From Acidobacteriota bacterium (GTDB lineage: Bacteria > Acidobacteriota > Terriglobia > Bryobacterales > Bryobacteraceae), in NCBI GenBank assembly GCA_016870995.1, contig VFZU01000058.1, forward strand, positions 1 to 34,070: a stretch of DNA of 34,070 nt, written 5' to 3'. The notes beneath the pieces were generated by a model. The model saw nothing but the letters and a program-made list of their open reading frames with translations, had not been told where the DNA came from and made no database searches. Numbering within the stretch: position 1 is the first letter of the stretch; the number at the start of each line of letters is the position of its first letter. Shown piece after piece: positions 13 to 11,738 of the stretch. Made by a program: the position numbers and the translations under genes.

Positions 13-939
13 ACCGCTTCCGGTGCCGTCTTAAGCGCTCAAACTGCCGTTTCTAGGTTTACCAAGCCCTATGCCTCGTTCCCCAACACCGGAACGCTGG
101 CTCAAACCCTGCGGCCCTATCCGCAGTTCGGCAACCTCGGCAGCCTCTGGGCTCCCCTCGGTAGCACCTGGTACGACTCGCTTCAGATCAAGGTCACCAA
201 GCGCTACTCCAAAGGCCTCGCCGGAACCCTAGCCTACACCTGGTCGAAGAACCTCACCAACGTCGAGAACCAGTCTGGCGGCGTCATCCCGCTCAACGAC
301 GTCTACAACCGTGACATCCAGAAATCCTTCTCGGTGAATGACCAACCCCAGGTTCTGGTCATCGGCTTCAACTACGACACCCCCAAGTGGAACAAGAATT
401 GGGCCACAAAAGCCATCCTCAGTGGCTGGACTTTCGGCGGCATCCTGCGCTACTCAAGCGGCTTCCCCATCGCGTCGCCGGGTTCGCAAAATGCTCTCGC
501 CAGCCTGCTCTTCCGCGGCACGCGCTTCAACCGTGTCCCCGGAGAACCGCTTTATCTCAAAGACCTCAACAACGCCAAGTCCATTGACCCCTTCAAGGAC
601 CTCACCCTTAACCCCAAAGCCTGGGTCGATGCCGGCCCTGGCCAGTGGGGCACCTCTGCGGATTACTACAACGACTACCGCACCGCCCGCCGTCCTGACG
701 AACAACTCTCCTTTGGTCGCATGTTCCGCGTCAAAGAGCGCTACGTCTTCAGCGTGCGCGGTGAGTTCTTCAACGTCTTCAACCGCACCTATCTGAACAA
801 CCCCGATAGCGGCAACCCGGCTGCGACCACCAACATCAACGCAGCTGGCGTCGTCACCGCGGGCTTCGGCCGCATCAACCCTGCCAGCACGTTTAACCCG
901 CCGCGCAATGGCCAAGTGGTTGCTCGCTTCCAGTTCTAA
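13..939 (+). CDS. Oar-like TonB-dependent receptor, C-terminal part (5' end outside window)
   Basis: This is the distal beta-barrel of an outer-membrane TonB-dependent receptor of the Oar type, which probably takes up large or complex substrates. Readable homology-like sequence begins right after a TAA at 10-12 and includes the typical 'LRPYPQFG' and 'TWYDSLQIKVTKRYSKGL' stretches, then alternating barrel strands, 'FNVFNRTYLNNP' and a terminal 'VVARFQF' ending in phenylalanine, the usual outer-membrane barrel signature. No credible start lies inside the window: a GTG at 334 falls in mid-barrel. The N-terminal carboxypeptidase-like domain and plug must lie upstream. The in-frame TAA at 10-12 may mean that the gene is broken, that there is a frameshift at the very edge, or a sequence error; nine bases upstream are too few to decide. 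Its end overlaps the next gene by 32 bases. Confidence 0.85.
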   Translation, partial: TASGAVLSAQTAVSRFTKPYASFPNTGTLAQTLRPYPQFGNLGSLWAPLGSTWYDSLQIKVTKRYSKGLAGTLAYTWSKNLTNVENQSGGVIPLNDVYNRDIQKSFSVNDQPQVLVIGFNYDTPKWNKNWATKAILSGWTFGGILRYSSGFPIASPGSQNALASLLFRGTRFNRVPGEPLYLKDLNNAKSIDPFKDLTLNPKAWVDAGPGQWGTSADYYNDYRTARRPDEQLSFGRMFRVKERYVFSVRGEFFNVFNRTYLNNPDSGNPAATTNINAAGVVTAGFGRINPASTFNPPRNGQVVARFQF

Positions 940-2452
940 GCTGCTGCTCCTCGTGGCGCTGCTGGCCGAGCCCGAGTCCTCACTCTGGCTCACCCGCAGT
1001 GCCGCTGAGGTGGGCATCGACTACATCCACAACAACGGCATTACTCCACGGCGCCGCCTTCCCGAAAACATGGGTCCAGGCGTCGCCGTTCTTGATTTCG
1101 ACGGCGATGGTCGCATGGACATCGCCTTCCCCACCGCTCTTTATCGCAACCTCGACGGTAAGCGCTTCGCCAAAGTCGAGGGGCTCGATAGCACCCTTTT
1201 CGGCATCGGCATCGCCACCGGCGATCCTGATCACGACGGCGATACCGACATCGTTGTCACCACTTGGGGCCGCGCCTGGCTCTATGAGAACCAGGGCGGA
1301 AAATCCTTCGCGAAACGCCCCATCTCGCCTGAAGGCCTCTGGACCGCTGCCGTCTTCTTCGACGCCGATGGCGATGGTTGGGAAGACCTCTACCTCGGCC
1401 ACTTCGTCGACTACGATCCCGCCACTGAACCCGCCTGCAAGTACGGCAACAACTTCCACTACTGCCACCCTCTTTCCTACAAGCCCCACGCCTCGACGCT
1501 GCTCAAGAATCTTGCGGGCAAAGGCTGGCGCGACATCTCGAAAGAAAGCGGCATCGCAGCCCACCTCGGCAAAGCCTTCGGAGCAGTCGCTGCAGACTTC
1601 AATCTCGATGGCCGCCTTGATCTCTTCGTCGCCAACGACTCGGTCGCCAACTTCCTGTTCGTCAACCAGGGCAATGGCCGCTTTCTTGAACAAGGCCTCG
1701 AGGCGAACGTCGCTTACTCCTCTGACGGCAATCCCCGCTCCGGCATGGGCGTCGATGTCGCCGACTACGACAACGACGGCCGCCCCGACCTCTTCGTCGC
1801 CAACTTCAATCGCGAGCGCTTCTCCATCTACCGTAACCTCCCCGGCAAAGACCTCACCTTTCGTGATGAAGCCGACCCCACCGGCATCGGCCTCGCCACT
1901 CAGATGTACTCCGGCTGGGGCATCAAGTTCCTTGACGCTAACCACGACGGCATCGAAGACATCCTGCTCGTCAACGGCCATCCCGACGACCGTATCGAGA
2001 ACCTCTCTACTACGCTCGCCTTCAAGGAGCCCATCCTCTACCTCGCCAACTCGGGCTCCCGCTTCACGGCCACTCGTGTCGGCCCCAATCTCCCGGCACG
2101 AGGGCTAGCCATCGGCGACTTCAATGACGGTGGCAACTACGATGCAGTCGTCGCTACCAACGGCGAAACCCCGCTTCTGCTTACGTCGAAACCGCAAGAC
2201 AACAACCACTGGCTCGGTCTCACTTTCAGGCACCGCCCTGTCGGCGTAACGATCAGCTGGTCTACCTCTGGCGTCGTCCGCCGCAAGTCGATCCACACAG
2301 ACTCAAGCTACCTCAGCGCCCATGATCCCCGCGTCATCCTTGGCCTCGGCCAGTCCACCAAAGTGGACTGGGTAGAAGTCACCCTTGGAACTCGCCGCCA
2401 CCGTCTGAGCCAACCTCTCGTCGATCGATACCACTCGATCCCGCTAAACTAA
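908..2452 (+). CDS. Secreted CRTAC1-family protein (FG-GAP/VCBS repeats plus ASPIC/UnbV domain)
   Basis: The 514-residue protein has a probable signal peptide (hydrophobic 'KLLLLVALLA' at residues 11-20). It has about seven FG-GAP/VCBS-type repeats carrying calcium-loop motifs such as DFDGDG (63-68), DPDHDG, DADGDG, DFNLDG, DYDNDG, DANHDG and a degenerate DFNDGG, which suggests a beta-propeller. The C-terminal 80 or so residues resemble ASPIC/UnbV, with 'SSYLSAHDPRVILGLG'. Family members are extracellular; the biochemical role is unsettled, and binding of carbohydrate or protein is the usual guess. The ATG at 908 lies inside the preceding receptor gene, giving a 32-base overlap that suggests co-transcription. 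The next in-frame alternative, a GTG at 953, would cut away most of the signal peptide. The 3' end overlaps the convergent regulator gene by 9 bases. Confidence 0.9.
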   Translation: MAKWLLASSSKLLLLVALLAEPESSLWLTRSAAEVGIDYIHNNGITPRRRLPENMGPGVAVLDFDGDGRMDIAFPTALYRNLDGKRFAKVEGLDSTLFGIGIATGDPDHDGDTDIVVTTWGRAWLYENQGGKSFAKRPISPEGLWTAAVFFDADGDGWEDLYLGHFVDYDPATEPACKYGNNFHYCHPLSYKPHASTLLKNLAGKGWRDISKESGIAAHLGKAFGAVAADFNLDGRLDLFVANDSVANFLFVNQGNGRFLEQGLEANVAYSSDGNPRSGMGVDVADYDNDGRPDLFVANFNRERFSIYRNLPGKDLTFRDEADPTGIGLATQMYSGWGIKFLDANHDGIEDILLVNGHPDDRIENLSTTLAFKEPILYLANSGSRFTATRVGPNLPARGLAIGDFNDGGNYDAVVATNGETPLLLTSKPQDNNHWLGLTFRHRPVGVTISWSTSGVVRRKSIHTDSSYLSAHDPRVILGLGQSTKVDWVEVTLGTRRHRLSQPLVDRYHSIPLN

Positions 2453-3208
2453 CCGCTCCAGCGTCTTCCGCGTCTCCGCATCGGCGGCGAACATGTGCTC
2501 CACTCGCAACGACTCGAGCGTGATGTCCTGCGGCGTGCCAAACGTCGTGAACATGCTGAAGAACGATAACTCTCCATGCACCGTCGCAAACCTCGTTGTC
2601 ATCACGGGAGACATCTTCCGCCCGCTGTGTCTAACGCTTCCCAGTCGGCCCTCGATCAGATTGGCAACCGCCTCCACTCTTGGCAACAACTCCGGCTTCA
2701 CAACGGCCTCCTCACGCGGGTGCACGAGGATCGAGGGCGCTACCTCCCCAAGGTTCGTTACCGTCTTAAGAAACCCTTCAGGATGCGCCATCAGGTCCAA
2801 CAAGTTCATTGGGCCTTGAGCCCAGGGCACGAGTGTCCCCGCCAGCCACATCCCACCGCGGTTCACCCGCACCAGATTCCACTGTGCGTCCAGCACCAGC
2901 GCTGGCATTGGGTCATGCGCTTCGAGCAATCGCAGAATTGCCTGGTGCGCCACCACGAGCGCGGGATCCTCCAGCGGCGCGGCCGTGTAGCTGGGTGCAT
3001 AGCCTGCTTCAAGCATCGCCGCGTTTTGCGTGGCCAGTGGCAGGTCCAACGTCTCAAGCCATCCCAGCAACAGTTCGCGGCTCGGCTTCGACCTCCCGCT
3101 CTCAACAAAGCTCACATGCCGCTGCGACACACCAATCCGCATCGACAGCTCCAACTGGCTCAGCCTCCGCGCTTTTCGCGCCTGTTGCAAGGTCTCGGTT
3201 AGCCCCAT
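2444..3208 (-). CDS. XRE-family regulator with MmyB-like ligand-binding domain
   Basis: The 254-residue cytoplasmic transcription factor has an N-terminal helix-turn-helix (about residues 4-60, with 'LSQLELSMRIGVSQRHVSFVE' as the two recognition helices). It is followed by a domain typical of MmyB-like regulators (about 85-250: 'DPMPALVLDAQWNLVRVN', 'SFFSMFTTFGTPQDITLESLRVE'), a PAS-like fold thought to bind a small hydrophobic ligand. Family members usually act as local repressors of a divergent gene. Here the divergent neighbours are the membrane protein, TPR and cytochrome genes, and a perfect inverted repeat sits 32 bases upstream of this start. That makes control of itself and of the cytochrome operon likely, but this is inferred. 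The ATG start is followed at once by the HTH, as is usual in the family. Confidence 0.92.
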   Translation of the reverse strand: MGLTETLQQARKARRLSQLELSMRIGVSQRHVSFVESGRSKPSRELLLGWLETLDLPLATQNAAMLEAGYAPSYTAAPLEDPALVVAHQAILRLLEAHDPMPALVLDAQWNLVRVNRGGMWLAGTLVPWAQGPMNLLDLMAHPEGFLKTVTNLGEVAPSILVHPREEAVVKPELLPRVEAVANLIEGRLGSVRHSGRKMSPVMTTRFATVHGELSFFSMFTTFGTPQDITLESLRVEHMFAADAETRKTLERLV

Positions 3209-3239
3209 ACATTCAGTCCATCACAGCTGAGAAAAAATT

Positions 3240-3260
3240 CAATTACCTCGCGCGTAATTG
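3240..3260. promoter_or_regulatory. Inverted repeat, candidate operator for the XRE/MmyB regulator
   Basis: CAATTAC-N7-GTAATTG: two perfect 7-base arms with a 7-base spacer of CTCGCGC, in an AT-rich patch. It lies 31 bases upstream of the regulator's ATG (minus strand) and 33 bases before the ATG at 3294 (plus strand), placed to govern both directions. The spacing, about two helical half-turns between arm centres, fits a dimeric HTH protein. Binding by the adjacent regulator is inferred. Confidence 0.6.
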
Positions 3261-3286
3261 CTTCGATTCCCAACAGCTCCAATACT
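3258..3286 (+). promoter_or_regulatory. Weak candidate promoter of the cytochrome operon
   Basis: TTGCTT (3258-3263) and AATACT (3281-3286) are 17 bases apart; the -10-like box is 7 bases before the ATG at 3294. The -35-like box overlaps the right arm of the inverted repeat, so a bound repressor would block it. The boxes are imperfect, so this is tentative. Confidence 0.3.
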
Positions 3287-3293
3287 GGACTCG

Positions 3294-3593
3294 ATGCCTA
3301 AATCAATTCTCATTCTGATCCTCATCCCCTTCTCGGTGCTCACAGGCCTGGCCCTTCGGGACCATGGTGTCTGGGGCATCATCGAGCCACACTTCAAGAG
3401 CTACGGTGCCGGTCAGGTTTTTGCAGACCTCTGCATCGCCCTCACGTTGATGCTCGTCCAGATCTGGCGCGATGCAAAGCAAACCGGGCGCAACTTCTGG
3501 CTCTGGCTGGCAGTGACACTTGCCACTGGCTCTTTCGGCCCTTTGCTGTATCTGCTCACTCGCAGGGAACAACCCGATAAAATTGCTGCATAG
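3294..3593 (+). CDS. Small membrane protein, DUF2834-like
   Basis: A protein of 99 residues from the ATG at 3294. A TTG start at 3258 would place the coding region inside the inverted repeat and add a non-hydrophobic leader, so 3294 is preferred. Three membrane segments are visible at about residues 4-20, 42-58 and 68-88; the pattern 'VFADLCIALTLMLVQIWRDA' then 'SFGPLLYLL' resembles DUF2834 proteins, a family without a known function. It is the first gene of a compact group: the next gene starts on the last base of this stop codon (TAGTG). With a TPR protein and a multiheme cytochrome downstream it may be a membrane component of a redox or assembly system, but nothing in the sequence shows a cofactor site. 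Confidence 0.75.
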   Translation: MPKSILILILIPFSVLTGLALRDHGVWGIIEPHFKSYGAGQVFADLCIALTLMLVQIWRDAKQTGRNFWLWLAVTLATGSFGPLLYLLTRREQPDKIAA

Positions 3594-4285
3594 TGCAGTC
3601 GCTCAGCAATAGCGCCATCGCCGACGCCGAGAAGCTCCTCGCCGCCGATCCTGGCAACCTTAACGCCTTGCTGTTGCTCGGCCGCGCACACATGGCATCC
3701 CAGCGATACCCTGAAGCCCGCCGCCTGTTTGAGCAAGCTGCAGCGGCCAACCCCAAGGCCGCTAAAGCGCATTTCATGCTCGGCTTTTGCGCCTATGTCG
3801 ATAACGATTTCCGCCTCGCCATCGAGCCGCTATCGCGAGCCCGCCAACTCAACCCCAAAGACGCCAACACGGCCTTGTATCTCGGTCTCTCCCACCAGGG
3901 CCTCGCCGAGCCAAATCTCGCCAAGCCCTACTTCGAAGCCGCCCTTCAGCTCAGCTCCGATCCTGAGATCCGTCTCGCCTATGCGCGCTCGCTGCTCGAA
4001 CAAGGTAACCGCAGCGCCGCCGAGCCACTCATTGCTCAAGCGCTCCGCCTTGCGCCCCGATCCCGCGACGCCCACTACGAAATGGCACGTCTCAGGCTCG
4101 ATTCCGGCTCTGCCGCGCAAGCTGCCGCCGAAGCCGAACTCGCGCTGCAACTGCCAGGCTCTGGCATCACCGATCGCCAGGTGCACTTTCTCCTCGCCAA
4201 GGCCTATTCGCAACTCGGTGACGCAGCCAAAGCCGCAGCCCATCGCAAGGCTTTTGAAGCGATTCCCCCAAGGCTCATCCGATGA
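3593..4285 (+). CDS. TPR-repeat protein
   Basis: A 230-residue protein made almost wholly of helical pairs that fit tetratricopeptide repeats, for example 'NALLLLGRAHMASQRYPEARRLFEQA', then 'FMLGFCAYVDNDFRLAIEPL', about six in all. There is no clear signal peptide or membrane segment, so it may be cytoplasmic, or the leader is cryptic. The GTG start overlaps the previous stop by one base (TAGTG) and its stop overlaps the following ATG by four bases (ATGA), so all three genes are probably translationally coupled. TPR proteins often accompany multiheme cytochromes as assembly or scaffold factors; that role here is inferred from position. Confidence 0.85.
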   Translation: MQSLSNSAIADAEKLLAADPGNLNALLLLGRAHMASQRYPEARRLFEQAAAANPKAAKAHFMLGFCAYVDNDFRLAIEPLSRARQLNPKDANTALYLGLSHQGLAEPNLAKPYFEAALQLSSDPEIRLAYARSLLEQGNRSAAEPLIAQALRLAPRSRDAHYEMARLRLDSGSAAQAAAEAELALQLPGSGITDRQVHFLLAKAYSQLGDAAKAAAHRKAFEAIPPRLIR

Positions 4286-5205
4286 TCCCAATCTTGTTGG
4301 CCATTGCACTCGACTGCACCCCTTGCCACAAAGACATCGCCGCCAGCTTCGCCAAGACTCCCATGGCCAACTCGAGTGAGCGCGTCCGGTCTCTTCAACC
4401 CGCCGAGTTCCTGCATCCACCCTCCGCCACCCGCTACACAATTTCGGACAAGGCCGCCGTCACCATCGAAACTCCGGCGGCCAAAGCCCGCCAGCAACTC
4501 GACTTTTTCATCGGCAGCGGAGCCCACGGCCAAAGCTTCTTGTTTCTTCGCAACCGCAAGCTCTTCGAAGCACCCATCACGCTGTACACGCACAAAGGTT
4601 GGGGCGCCTCCCCTGGATATGAAAAAGATCTGAATTCCGATTGGACCCGCCCCGTCACCCGCGAATGCCTCTGGTGCCACGCCAGTGGCGCCAAGCCGAT
4701 CTACGGTACGGTCAACACCTATGCTGATCCCGTCTTCACCCACGGCGGGCTCACCTGCGAGAGATGTCACGCGGAAGACTCGAAACACTTCAACAACCCG
4801 GCTAAGCTAGCCGTCGAACCTCGCAACGATGTTTGCCGGCAATGCCACCAATTGAACGGCCGAACCGATCTTAAAGGCAAGAGCTTCTTTAGCTACAAGC
4901 CAGGCATGTTGCTCTCGGATCTAGTGAGCTATCAGACCAAACCCCAACAACCCGATACTCCCCTCAGCACCACCAGCCACTTCGAGCGGCTCGCTGCTTC
5001 CACCTGCGCCAAAGCCAGCGGAGACAAACTCTGGTGCGGCACCTGCCACAATCCCCATCCCACCAAGACCAGCGCCAACGCCTGCCTCAAATGCCACATC
5101 AACAATCTTTGTCGCCGCGGCCCCGATTGCGCCTCCTTTCACATGCCCAAAAACACAGCACCGGACTCAGGCCACGCCACCTTCACCGACCACTGGATCC
5201 GCTAA
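4282..5205 (+). CDS. Multiheme c-type cytochrome, six CxxCH plus one degenerate CxxFH
   Basis: A 307-residue protein with covalent heme-binding motifs CTPCH (12-16), CLWCH (129-133), CERCH (159-163), CRQCH (185-189), CGTCH (252-256) and CLKCH (268-272). A seventh site reads CASFH (283-287), where the second cysteine is phenylalanine. Multiheme cytochromes act in the periplasm in electron transfer. The export signal is unusually short: only nine apolar residues with no basic n-region come before the first heme motif. No start exists further upstream because a TGA at 4255 closes the frame, so ATG 4282 is fixed unless there is an error. The ending '..FHMPK..HATFTDHWI' resembles the CxxCHMPK..FTDHxI tail seen in TPR-associated cytochromes. 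The gene overlaps the TPR gene by 4 bases and ends 2 bases from the convergent adenosyltransferase gene. Confidence 0.9.
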   Translation: MIPILLAIALDCTPCHKDIAASFAKTPMANSSERVRSLQPAEFLHPPSATRYTISDKAAVTIETPAAKARQQLDFFIGSGAHGQSFLFLRNRKLFEAPITLYTHKGWGASPGYEKDLNSDWTRPVTRECLWCHASGAKPIYGTVNTYADPVFTHGGLTCERCHAEDSKHFNNPAKLAVEPRNDVCRQCHQLNGRTDLKGKSFFSYKPGMLLSDLVSYQTKPQQPDTPLSTTSHFERLAASTCAKASGDKLWCGTCHNPHPTKTSANACLKCHINNLCRRGPDCASFHMPKNTAPDSGHATFTDHWIR

Positions 5206-5207
5206 GA

Positions 5208-5810
5208 CTAACGAGCGCCCTTGTTGGGCTGCCACAGCGCTTCCTCAACTCCAAGCGCCTGATTCACCCAACGGCTCCAGACAAAGAAAGCGTCGCTTAA
5301 ACGGTTGAGATAAAGAAGGGCCTCTCTCGGCACTTCATCCTGGTGGCTCAGCGTAACCAGCTGGCGCTCAGCGCGCCGGCACACCGTGCGGCAAACGTGA
5401 AGCTCGGCGCAAACCCGCGATCCGCCGGGCAGCACAAAACTGCGCAAGGACGGCAAGCTGGCGTTGTAGTGATCAATATCACGCTCCAATTGCTCGATCG
5501 TTTCCTTGGTCACGCGCGGCTGATTCGGATGAAGGTCGGCAGGAAGAGTTGCCAGAACACTACCGAGGTTAAAGAGCTCGTGCTGGACACGCTCAAAGAT
5601 CAGCTCCAGCTCGTCGAGCTTATTTTCACGGCATGAAATGCGAACGAGCCCAACAAAGCTGTTGAGCTCGTCCACAGTACCGAAAACTTCAATGCGTTGC
5701 GAGTCCTTTGGGACGCGCTGACCTCCAACTAGTCCCGTCTCGCCTTTGTCACCGGTCTTGGTGTAAATCCGGTTTAGTGCCAGACGGGGTTCGTGGAAAG
5801 CCTCGCTCAT
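5208..5810 (-). CDS. pduO: Cob(I)alamin adenosyltransferase, PduO type
   Basis: This enzyme transfers the adenosyl group of ATP to cob(I)alamin to make adenosylcobalamin, in the cytoplasm. The 200-residue length is normal. Family motifs are all present: 'YTKTGDKGETGL' (16-27, ATP site), 'EVFGTVDELNSFVG' (41-54), 'FVLPGGS' (125-131), 'RTVCRRAER' (141-149) and 'YLNRLSDAFFVWSRW' near the end. It is the last gene of a minus-strand run, 11 bases after the OmpA-like gene, with an AAGGG just before its ATG. A coenzyme-B12-dependent mutase subunit is encoded 3.5 kb away on the other strand, which fits local B12 use. The human MMAB family is homologous; the CobA and EutT types are unrelated in sequence. 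Confidence 0.95.
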   Translation of the reverse strand: MSEAFHEPRLALNRIYTKTGDKGETGLVGGQRVPKDSQRIEVFGTVDELNSFVGLVRISCRENKLDELELIFERVQHELFNLGSVLATLPADLHPNQPRVTKETIEQLERDIDHYNASLPSLRSFVLPGGSRVCAELHVCRTVCRRAERQLVTLSHQDEVPREALLYLNRLSDAFFVWSRWVNQALGVEEALWQPNKGAR

Positions 5811-9723: not shown

Positions 9724-11361
9724 ATGCCTCTACAAGACAAAACAAACATTGCGGTGTTCGTCGATTACGACAACATCGAAATTGGATTAAAGACAACTTT
9801 GCGGCGTGAATTTGACGTCTCGCTTTGTCTAGATGCACTGAAAGAGCGTGGCGACATTGTTGCGAAATTCGCCTACGCAAACTGGGGCCGGCAGGAAGGT
9901 GCTGCCCGGCAGATGGCTGAAAACGCCGTACAGATGGTGCAGCGGCTGCCAAGCCCGCGCGGAGACAAGAATGGGGGAGACATCAATCTGGCGCTCGACG
10001 CCCTTGAGATGGCTTTCACCCACACCCATGTCACCGCGTTTGCCATCATCAGTGGCGATAGCGATTTCATCCCCCTGGTAAACAAATTGAAGGAATACGG
10101 CAAGATAGTTTACGTTGTGGGCGGCAAGGCCTTCACGTCGAACATCCTGCAGTCCAACTGTCACGAATTCGTGGCCTATGAGAACCTTCTGCTGGACCGC
10201 GCCGCACGTATGGACGGCGGCGAAAATGGCCCGGCAATGGAGAAGCTCAAGCAGGAACTGGCCGATTCATTGAGCCGCGCGGAAGCGCCTTCCGGCAGCC
10301 GCTGGGAACGCCAGCGTGACCGCGATGGACGTGACCGCCGGGATCGTGGCCGTGACCGTGGTGACTGCGGTGATCGTGGTGAACGCACCGAGCAGAGCCG
10401 TGAAGTTGAAATGGTTGATGCCGCTCCCGCGGATCGCATCGATCTGCTGCCGGGCGAAAAGCTCTCCCGCGCCAGCGCATCCAGCTACAGCGCACCGGTG
10501 GCTTCAGACGCGCCTCCCGAAAGAGGCCGTGAAAGCCGCTGGGAACGCCGCGACCGCCGTCGTGAAGAACGCAACCGCAAGGAGCGTCCGCCGCAGGCCG
10601 AACGTCCGCCGGTATCTAACGAACCGCGCGTGACGCAGGAGATCCAGGCGGCATTGCCGCTAGTGGAGCGCTCGCTGCAAACTCTCGAACGCCGCGGCGT
10701 GCAGGCTCAACTGGGCTTGCTCAAGAGCACGATGATGCAACTCGACCCGACCTTCCACGAACGTGGCTTTGGCGCTTCGAGCTTCAGCGACTTCATCGAC
10801 CGCCTCAAGAAGGCTGAGTTGATCGAAGTGCATGGCTCGGGCGGCAAGCTCACGATCGAGCGCAAGGGCGGAGCAAACGCAAAGCCTCTGCCAGAACCCG
10901 AAGAAGCTCTGCCATTGTTGCGCGATGCGCTCGAAGCGCACCGCTACGAGATGGAGATGGGCGACGGCGTGGAACCTGGCGACCTCGCTCAGTGGATCGC
11001 CACCGAGCACCCTGGCTTCGATGTTCACAGCTATGGCTTCCCCGGCTTTCACGAGTTCCTGACGTTCTCTGAAAAGAAGGGCGTCGTGAATGTGAAGAAA
11101 GAAGAAGAACGTGGCATCGTGGTTTACCTCGGCCGCGAGTTCTTCCCGCCCCCGGCACCGAAGGTGAAAAAGGAAGAGGACTTCTACAGCGAATACGATG
11201 AAGTGCAGCCCTATGTTGAAGGGCAGCCCAGCATCGTCGAGCCGAATCCTCCTCCCGCGAAGGCGAAAAAGGCAACGACGCGAGCTCGCAAGAGCACCGG
11301 CACCGCCGCCAAGAAGTCTTCGTCGAGCCGTCCGCGTACCACGAGGAAGAAGCCCGAATGA
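9724..11361 (+). CDS. NYN-domain ribonuclease-like protein with two OST-HTH (LOTUS) domains
   Basis: A 545-residue cytoplasmic protein. Residues 6-155 form an NYN/PIN-like nuclease fold with acidic residues in the expected places: D14 and D16 ('VDYDN'), D86 and D92 ('GGDINLALDA'), D112 and D114 ('SGDSDF'). A charged disordered linker (about 165-305) holds two Arg-rich blocks that share 'SRWER'. Residues about 305-380 and 394-470 look like OST-HTH/LOTUS domains ('GFGASSFSDFIDRLKKAELIEV' and 'SYGFPGFHEFL'), RNA-binding modules. The tail (513-545) is Lys/Ser/Arg-rich. NYN plus OST-HTH is the architecture of animal MARF1 and of bacterial proteins thought to process RNA; the target here is unknown. 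AGGAG lies 3 bases before the ATG. Its stop overlaps the RidA start (ATGA). Confidence 0.9.
   Translation: MPLQDKTNIAVFVDYDNIEIGLKTTLRREFDVSLCLDALKERGDIVAKFAYANWGRQEGAARQMAENAVQMVQRLPSPRGDKNGGDINLALDALEMAFTHTHVTAFAIISGDSDFIPLVNKLKEYGKIVYVVGGKAFTSNILQSNCHEFVAYENLLLDRAARMDGGENGPAMEKLKQELADSLSRAEAPSGSRWERQRDRDGRDRRDRGRDRGDCGDRGERTEQSREVEMVDAAPADRIDLLPGEKLSRASASSYSAPVASDAPPERGRESRWERRDRRREERNRKERPPQAERPPVSNEPRVTQEIQAALPLVERSLQTLERRGVQAQLGLLKSTMMQLDPTFHERGFGASSFSDFIDRLKKAELIEVHGSGGKLTIERKGGANAKPLPEPEEALPLLRDALEAHRYEMEMGDGVEPGDLAQWIATEHPGFDVHSYGFPGFHEFLTFSEKKGVVNVKKEEERGIVVYLGREFFPPPAPKVKKEEDFYSEYDEVQPYVEGQPSIVEPNPPPAKAKKATTRARKSTGTAAKKSSSSRPRTTRKKPE
10291..10587 (+). repeat. Two Arg/Asp-rich low-complexity blocks in the NYN protein
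   Basis: Bases 10291-10395 encode an RD/RG-rich stretch built on repeats of CGTGACCG and GATCGTGG-like units. Bases 10528-10587 encode a second block of the same style. Both begin with Ser-Arg-Trp-Glu-Arg, so one may derive from the other. Such RGG/RD-like regions often bind RNA. Confidence 0.65.
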
Positions 11362-11738
11362 TCGAGCGTTTGTTCCCTCCTGGGGTGCCAACGCCGAAGA
11401 ACCCGTACTCGCCAGCCGTCAAGGCTGGCGGGTTCGTTTTCGTTTCCGGTCAGGCTGCGACAGATGCCGCGACCGGCGAGATGAGCTACGGCGATATCCA
11501 GCATGAGACCCGCGTGACGTTGACCAACATCAAGCGCATTCTCGAGGGCTCTGGTGCGTCGATGGAGCAGGTGGTGAAAGTGAACGTGTATCTCCTCGAC
11601 GAGCGTGACTTCGCCAAGATGAACGAGGTTTATGTCGAGTTCTTTGGTAAGGATCGTCCGGCAAGGACGACAATTGGCTGTAAGTTCGCCAATCCGGTGA
11701 TGAAGGTCGAAATCGACTGCATCGCCTACACAGGTTAA
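11358..11738 (+). CDS. ridA: RidA-family (YjgF/YER057c/UK114) protein
   Basis: A 126-residue protein of normal length for the family that hydrolyses reactive enamine/imine intermediates made by PLP enzymes. It shows 'YSPAVKAGGFVFVSGQ' near the N-terminus, the central 'VVKVNVYLLDERDFAKMNEVY', and 'PARTTIGC', which holds the substrate-carboxylate-binding arginine, with 'KVEIDCIA' at the end. A true RidA activity is therefore plausible, though the 'TIGCKFANP' segment differs from classical RidA, so it may belong to another Rid subfamily. The ATG overlaps the NYN gene stop by four bases, implying translational coupling, and the TAA shares bases with the stop codon of the convergent MutS2 gene. 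Confidence 0.93.
   Translation: MIERLFPPGVPTPKNPYSPAVKAGGFVFVSGQAATDAATGEMSYGDIQHETRVTLTNIKRILEGSGASMEQVVKVNVYLLDERDFAKMNEVYVEFFGKDRPARTTIGCKFANPVMKVEIDCIAYTG

Follow-up and report, generated by a model that had tools for sequence, protein, structure and literature searches.

The question raised by this locus is whether a regulator gene, the three genes diverging from it and the repeat between them constitute one conserved regulatory module. The window (the whole stretch of DNA analysed, 34,070 nucleotides) is one entire contig, VFZU01000058.1, of a draft assembly with a genome size of 5.7 Mb and 215 contigs (GCA_016870995.1) from a soil-type Acidobacteriota bacterium of the family Bryobacteraceae; the relatives that bear names are Acidobacteria and Bryobacteraceae metagenome-assembled genomes, and loci and genomes are cited below by working numbers (L and G). 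The genes concerned encode an MmyB-type regulator and, divergently, a DUF2834-like membrane protein, a TPR protein and a multiheme c-type cytochrome. This arrangement, described in an earlier note on the same DNA, was recovered in full from Pfam matches and coordinates, together with the overlaps of 1 base between the DUF2834-like and TPR genes (3593) and of 4 bases between the TPR and cytochrome genes (4282-4285). As judged from gene order in relatives, two modules meet in the four-gene set, and no more than one genome shows this junction. The favoured reading, held with modest confidence, is that a cassette switch has been inserted in a receptor-CRTAC1-TPR-cytochrome unit, where it would repress its own regulator gene and the DUF2834-like gene until a ligand relieves the repression, the TPR and cytochrome genes having been captured by it.

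The regulator gene (2444-3208, minus strand) encodes an MmyB/MltR-like protein, as assigned from Pfam, a structure model and homologues. An XRE-type helix-turn-helix (HTH) domain lies at the N-terminus (HTH_3, E 7.8e-11) and a PAS-like ligand-binding domain of the MLTR type at the C-terminus (MLTR_LBD, PF17765, E 2.9e-19, 70.2 bits against a cut-off of 26.3). The best Foldseek match of the AlphaFold model (mean predicted local distance difference test (pLDDT) 82.8) was 3pxp, MltR with a fatty acid, at an E value of 2.5e-9, a TM-score of 0.49/0.44 and an identity of 16%; a search of the PDB with the sequence profile of the regulator retrieved only HTH relatives. According to the available part of PMC3406030, the MltR crystal contained a fatty-acid-like ligand; MltR is named as a fatty-acid PAS domain in the available part of PMC8694187. 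The PAS-like domain of the regulator would take a small, probably lipophilic ligand. Regarding the search of 61 relatives, strong, near-full-length matches were confined to the own genome, G002 and G007, with a further match, in pieces, in G016; the matches in the remaining six genomes were weak and mostly to the HTH alone. The homologues in G002 and G007 are 63-65% identical and likewise divergent from a DUF2834-like gene. In G016 (contig C5, L038/L078) the regulator is divided between two reading frames, with the site and the DUF2834-like gene retained.

The gene across the intergenic region (3294-3593, plus strand, ATG start) encodes a small membrane protein of 99 aa. Its score against PF11196 is 21.7 bits, under the cut-off of 22.9, and it is therefore called DUF2834-like; the relatives in G002 and G007, which are about 71-73% identical, pass with 26.3 and 25.8 bits. 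An alternative start at TTG 3258 was discarded, the alignment of relatives favouring ATG 3294. The model of the protein is helical (mean pLDDT 75.3), and a fold search with it gave no useful match in the PDB. The DUF2834-like protein was sought in 257 genomes of the order, with matches in 20, including the own genome, and the regulator was sought at these loci with tblastn (E 1e-2). A divergent MmyB-like regulator was found at 14 of the 20 loci and none at six, so that the window and 13 other loci have a regulator with a putative divergent target and a common upstream region, as is usual for MmyB/MltR-like regulators. In G002, G007 and G016 the cassette stands without TPR or cytochrome genes. 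On this co-occurrence, regulator, repeat and DUF2834-like gene are taken to be one conserved unit. Elsewhere in the phylum the regulator, the DUF2834-like gene and a site within 2 mismatches occur together in two genomes (L142, L143); the full set was not seen in L139, L140, L144 and L145, where there was either a regulator fragment only (L139, L145) or no regulator match (L140, L144). A search for DUF2834 on plasmids gave no match, and the DUF2834 Pfam model gave one match in 14 control genomes, in Deinobacterium chartae. Two further loci are recorded as side observations. L144 (G412) has, at about 1400, a DUF2834-like gene and a variant palindrome, ACTACCTCTGAGGTAGT, with no regulator match nearby. 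L083 (G001, contig C310, 1501-1629) holds a partial DUF2834-like match with an internal stop codon and no regulator; G001 retains an uninterrupted CRTAC1-TPR-cytochrome order.

The repeat CAATTAC-N7-GTAATTG at 3240-3260 (CAATTACCTCGCGCGTAATTG) is exact, as the earlier note had it, and is the sole copy without mismatch in the own genome, the runner-up having 1 mismatch. The conserved site is longer, with the family consensus CAATWACCT-N4-RGTAATTG, and the perfect CAATTAC/GTAATTG symmetry proved to be a minority form (3 of 14 loci). The consensus was matched within 2 mismatches at all 14 regulator-DUF2834 loci of the order, and thus at all 13 others where a copy upstream of the orthologous regulator had been expected; there were no mismatches at 11 of the 14, and the GTAATTG arm was invariant. 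(Note that the consensus was derived from the same 14 loci on which it is scored, and the count is therefore one of conservation.) Mononucleotide shuffling yielded none in 2000 rounds; the site is thus better conserved than chance would allow. Outside tests were provided by the six DUF2834-like loci that lack the regulator, in all of which the site is at least 5 mismatches away, and by a genome-wide scan of the 257 genomes, in which all ten places without mismatch among the matches listed fall at regulator-DUF2834 loci. At 2 mismatches chance matches are frequent (113 of 257 genomes), and a check of 29 loci with such a site (L102-L130) gave a regulator match in four (L116, L121, L127, L130). 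With a pattern one base shorter, used as a spacing control, nine of the 257 genomes gave matches, all with 1 mismatch and none with a listed DUF2834-like match. A larger regulon was considered and rejected, as only one place in the own genome lies within 2 mismatches of the extended consensus; control therefore looks local.

The geometry of the site was assessed by taking TTG at either of its outer ends as the start of a -35 element. On the DUF2834 side, TTG closes the site in 14 of 14 loci and is followed by a hexamer.A..CT in 13, with a spacer of 17 (nine loci) or 18 bases (four loci); at other distances.A..CT was found only twice, at spacer 3, and once, at spacer 24. In the window the predicted promoter of the DUF2834-like gene (3258-3286, plus strand) accordingly consists of TTG at 3258-3260, the right end of the operator, a 17-base spacer and AATACT at 3281-3286. 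On the regulator side, TTG is present in 13 of 14 loci and a looser.A...T at spacer 17 or 18 in 10, some other distances giving as many as 3. A generic sigma-70 scan of 2300-5300 found no promoter, and the elements are therefore proposed from conservation. By this geometry the site would overlie the -35 element of both promoters. As the repeat extends over the putative -35 regions of two promoters standing back to back, it is very probable that the MmyB-like regulator has its operator here. A regulator dimer on CAATTACCTCGCGCGTAATTG would cover the -35 regions on both sides and so repress the regulator gene as well as the DUF2834-like one. Repression is favoured because the site is placed alike relative to both promoters, and the XRE regulator MsrR (PMC7532634), a repressor of its own and a divergent gene, offers a precedent; the binding of a small and probably lipophilic ligand by the PAS-like domain would then alter DNA binding and turn both genes on.

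Three points weigh against this sign of control. Xu et al., in the available part of PMC3406030, propose activation for MmyB regulators; the operator centre lies, as reckoned in the present analysis, at about -43 of both proposed promoters, which suits activation too; and the regulator-side.A...T is absent in the window, as in L066-L068. The ligand-bound regulator could thus be an activator that recruits RNA polymerase to the DUF2834-TPR-cytochrome promoter from the same operator, as in the family model of that report, in which the divergent target gene is activated by small molecules. This alternative is thought rather unlikely, since TTG at both outer ends of the site fits the occlusion of two promoters better than the activation of one, an argument weakened by the regulator-side -10 not being recognisable in the window.

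The TPR and cytochrome genes have relatives of another kind. The TPR gene (3593-4285, plus strand, GTG start) matches Pfam TPR_19/TPR_16, and the cytochrome gene (4282-5205, plus strand) was assigned from Pfam, a motif count and homologues. The cytochrome was sought in 61 genomes, with matches in 47; 29 non-own loci (L006-L034) and 18 further contig loci (L047-L064) gave 47 loci, with flanks of up to about 1.5 kb (L006-L034) or 6 kb (L047-L064), less at contig ends. The TPR protein was sought in 237 genomes of the family, with matches in 43, and 29 non-own loci (L159-L187) were examined. Of these 29 TPR loci, 28 have a CRTAC1 gene on the same strand upstream (in L183 part of a receptor takes its place), and eight have a cytochrome gene downstream. 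CRTAC1, TPR and cytochrome genes stand in a row in L006, L047, L048 and L008 (L006 and L048 are probably one and the same genome). Within the flanks examined, neither the regulator nor DUF2834 was found at any of the 29 related TPR loci or the 47 related cytochrome loci (the latter searched with tblastn, E 1e-4), and neither TPR nor cytochrome within about 1.5 kb of any of the 13 other regulator-DUF2834 loci. The expectation that the trio would be conserved beside the regulator thus failed, and a conserved regulator-cytochrome module is rejected for the loci examined, where no shared occurrence was seen outside the window. That regulator, DUF2834-like, TPR and cytochrome genes co-evolved as a ligand-switched periplasmic electron-transfer system is very improbable on these three counts, for all that the tight overlaps in the window and the single site upstream would fit such a system. 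The TPR and cytochrome genes are instead to be assigned, on gene order, to a separate receptor-CRTAC1-TPR-cytochrome unit.

The comparison partners for this unit were L131 (G001, same genus), L047 and L048. L131 has the order receptor-CRTAC1-TPR-cytochrome with overlapping CRTAC1 and TPR frames, no cassette and a best site at 6 mismatches; its cytochrome ends with the contig after 110 residues. In L047 and L048 the CRTAC1, TPR and cytochrome genes are adjacent, CRTAC1 overlaps the start of TPR, and no cassette is present. In the window the cassette (2444-3593: regulator, operator and DUF2834-like gene), absent between CRTAC1 and TPR in L131, L047 and L048, stands between the stop of CRTAC1 at 2452 and GTG 3593 of TPR, which overlaps the stop of the DUF2834-like gene. 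It was most likely inserted between CRTAC1 and TPR in the lineage of the window, placing TPR and cytochrome behind the cassette promoter; insertion is preferred to loss because G001 and the L047/L048 lineage share the uninterrupted order. A self-contained switch of about 1.15 kb, with one operator between back-to-back promoters, would thus have entered the unit, and TPR and cytochrome, lying directly behind DUF2834 with overlaps of 1 and 4 bases, would be read with it on a single transcript under the same switch. Capture of the cytochrome operon by the cassette in one lineage is regarded as probable.

The following observations tell against so simple a history. The shares of residues unique to the window are 100/491 in CRTAC1, 51/230 in TPR and 20/106 in the cytochrome (19-22%) compared with 11/201 (5%) in the receptor part; this divergence is not explained by a single recent insertion, and the history of the unit may be more complicated. 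A single genome has the junction, and its assembly is a draft in 215 contigs; no transposase or flanking repeat was noticed at the cassette, no dedicated search having been made. TPR and cytochrome could also be read from the CRTAC1 side, though the regulator gene lies antisense between. Relaxed evolution of the TPR and cytochrome genes after insertion was considered, and the shares of unique residues gave no sign of it relative to CRTAC1. A search for TPR-cytochrome DNA on plasmids gave no match.

The beginning of the TPR gene and the end of the cytochrome gene bear on whether these two genes would respond to the switch. The TPR N-terminus is 12-14 aa shorter in alignment than in L131, L047 and L048, and no clear ribosome-binding site before GTG 3593 was seen by eye. 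The cytochrome has six CxxCH motifs, as the earlier description of a hexaheme cytochrome implied, and belongs to a seven-motif family: seven CxxCH were counted in 45 of 47 relatives, and the two with six are cut by the contig (L063) or aligned only from query residue 70 (L062). A seventh motif is altered to CASFH (5128-5142), which may be a real loss or a sequence error. From the truncated start, the altered heme motif and the missing ribosome-binding signal it could be argued that the cassette has no functional effect on TPR and cytochrome, only the regulator and DUF2834-like genes being switched and the other two being read from elsewhere or decaying. The frames are intact, and the shares of unique residues in TPR and cytochrome are no higher than in CRTAC1; a cassette without effect is accordingly considered doubtful, and capture remains the preferred reading. 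The idea that the whole trio is periplasmic found no support, as no obvious signal peptide was seen by eye in the TPR of the window lineage. Ahead of its first CxxCH the cytochrome has no more than a short hydrophobic stretch, and L131 and L047 look alike in this respect (read without a signal-peptide predictor).

The cytochrome of the window is 54% identical to those of L006/L047/L048. Most relatives lie in longer frames of up to 731 aa, which are taken as TPR fusions from their lengths alone; separate genes occur in the window, L006, L047 and L048. The own genome gave nine cytochrome-like matches, those listed beside that of the window lying in longer frames, and the window cytochrome is therefore one of an expanded family. 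Upstream, a CRTAC1-type FG-GAP/ASPIC-UnbV protein is encoded at 908-2452 (plus strand; Pfam, about 60% identical in L131, L047 and L048), presumably the original upstream neighbour of TPR. The receptor, a TonB-type outer-membrane barrel protein, is represented by its C-terminal part at 334-939 (plus strand; Pfam OMP_b-brl_4, 81% identical in L131 and L047); the homologous receptor frame extends upstream to about position 13, at the start of the contig. Further downstream, 9724-11738 encodes a protein with NYN and OST-HTH/LOTUS domains, followed by an endoribonuclease L-PSP family gene.

The genes behind the cassette at the 13 other regulator-DUF2834 loci were judged by the longest frames only. 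In L075 (G172) a co-directional FdhD/NarQ-family gene (646-1467) begins about 4 bases after the DUF2834-like gene, and in L078 a co-directional gene for a DUF1549/Big_2 protein lies 21 bases behind it; the cassette thus sometimes precedes unrelated genes. In L068 the frame behind the cassette is co-directional and has no Pfam match; in L066, L070 and L072 a long frame of opposite direction meets the cassette tail-to-tail, and L067 allows no judgement.

Sites of a related type were found beyond the cassette. The regulator matched 72 plasmid records by tblastn, and 15 of the 20 listed were examined for ATTACCT-N3-AGGTAAT. The motif occurs within 2 mismatches in nine of these 15 loci, with 3 mismatches in four (L086, L089, L189, L192), while L085 and L092 are 4 and 6 mismatches away. 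Each locus was put through 40 dinucleotide shuffles, and the best match was never below 3 mismatches; the cases with 3 mismatches therefore rest on their position. At the annotated loci the site is placed either between the regulator and its partner or ahead of the first gene of the row, often with NTF2-like and alpha/beta-hydrolase genes, except in L190 (Streptomyces), where it lies about 600 bases past the distal end of the regulator. Clear cases thus come from Pseudomonadota and Deinococcota, so that at least two phyla besides that of the window are involved; the Actinomycetota loci, three in number (L085, L092, L190), gave no good support for a related site. The HTH reads SPRH in L085 and L092, where the window and the remaining rows read SQRH, STRH, SARH or SQRQ, a small-number correlation. 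Regarding six hand-picked palindromic places outside DUF2834 loci in the own family, a regulator match was present in L133, L134 and L136, where the site has NTF2/SnoaL-like or hydrolase neighbours, and was not found in L135, L137 and L138. A broader reading, that a portable MmyB-type switch which regulates itself, and whose operator type (ATTACCT-N3-AGGTAAT) is common to at least two other phyla, was inserted in a cytochrome operon, captured it and brought it under a small-molecule control foreign to its relatives, is put forward tentatively, as a possibility somewhat short of even chances.

For a branch of MmyB-like regulators on which little work has been done, the locus supplies a probable operator definite enough to be tested, along with a conserved partner gene (DUF2834) whose function is not known. 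With operator and partner gene in hand, reporter or binding assays could therefore be used to look for the natural ligand. Should the capture prove true, it would illustrate clearly, on a small scale, how regulation is rewired when a complete switch is inserted in an operon.

Among known systems, MltR (Caur_2278) and the MmyB family, to the extent of the published text available, resemble the window in the combination of an XRE HTH with a PAS-like domain, in the divergent target with a short common intergenic region, and in the best fold match, 3pxp. They differ in the low identity (16%, TM-score as given above) and in the partner, a DUF2834-like membrane gene in the window versus their SDR/MDR or antibiotic gene; the window operator, for its part, was delineated by comparison. 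The plasmid MmyB-like regulators beside NTF2-like and alpha/beta-hydrolase genes (L087, L088, L090, L191, L193 and others) share the regulator type and the related site, which either adjoins the regulator or opens the gene row; their partner genes differ, and they often stand in a co-directional row, in contrast to the divergent pair of the window. MsrR of Corynebacterium glutamicum is likewise an XRE regulator with its site in overlapping divergent promoters, from which, in the available part of PMC7532634, it represses its own gene and the divergent one; unlike the window regulator, it is described there as sensing thiol redox state and has other targets. The CRTAC1-TPR-multiheme cytochrome neighbourhoods (L131, L047, L048) have related TPR and cytochrome genes overlapping at their junction with CRTAC1 upstream, and differ from the window in having no regulator, DUF2834 or operator, a longer TPR N-terminus and seven CxxCH motifs in L047 and L048 (L131 being cut). 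Among the literature matches listed, so far as their text was available, no description of the operator or of the regulator-DUF2834 pair was found; PMC12565409 derives XRE motifs and may include it. The regulator is thus of a known kind, whereas the operator appears newly delineated and its partner gene looks new.

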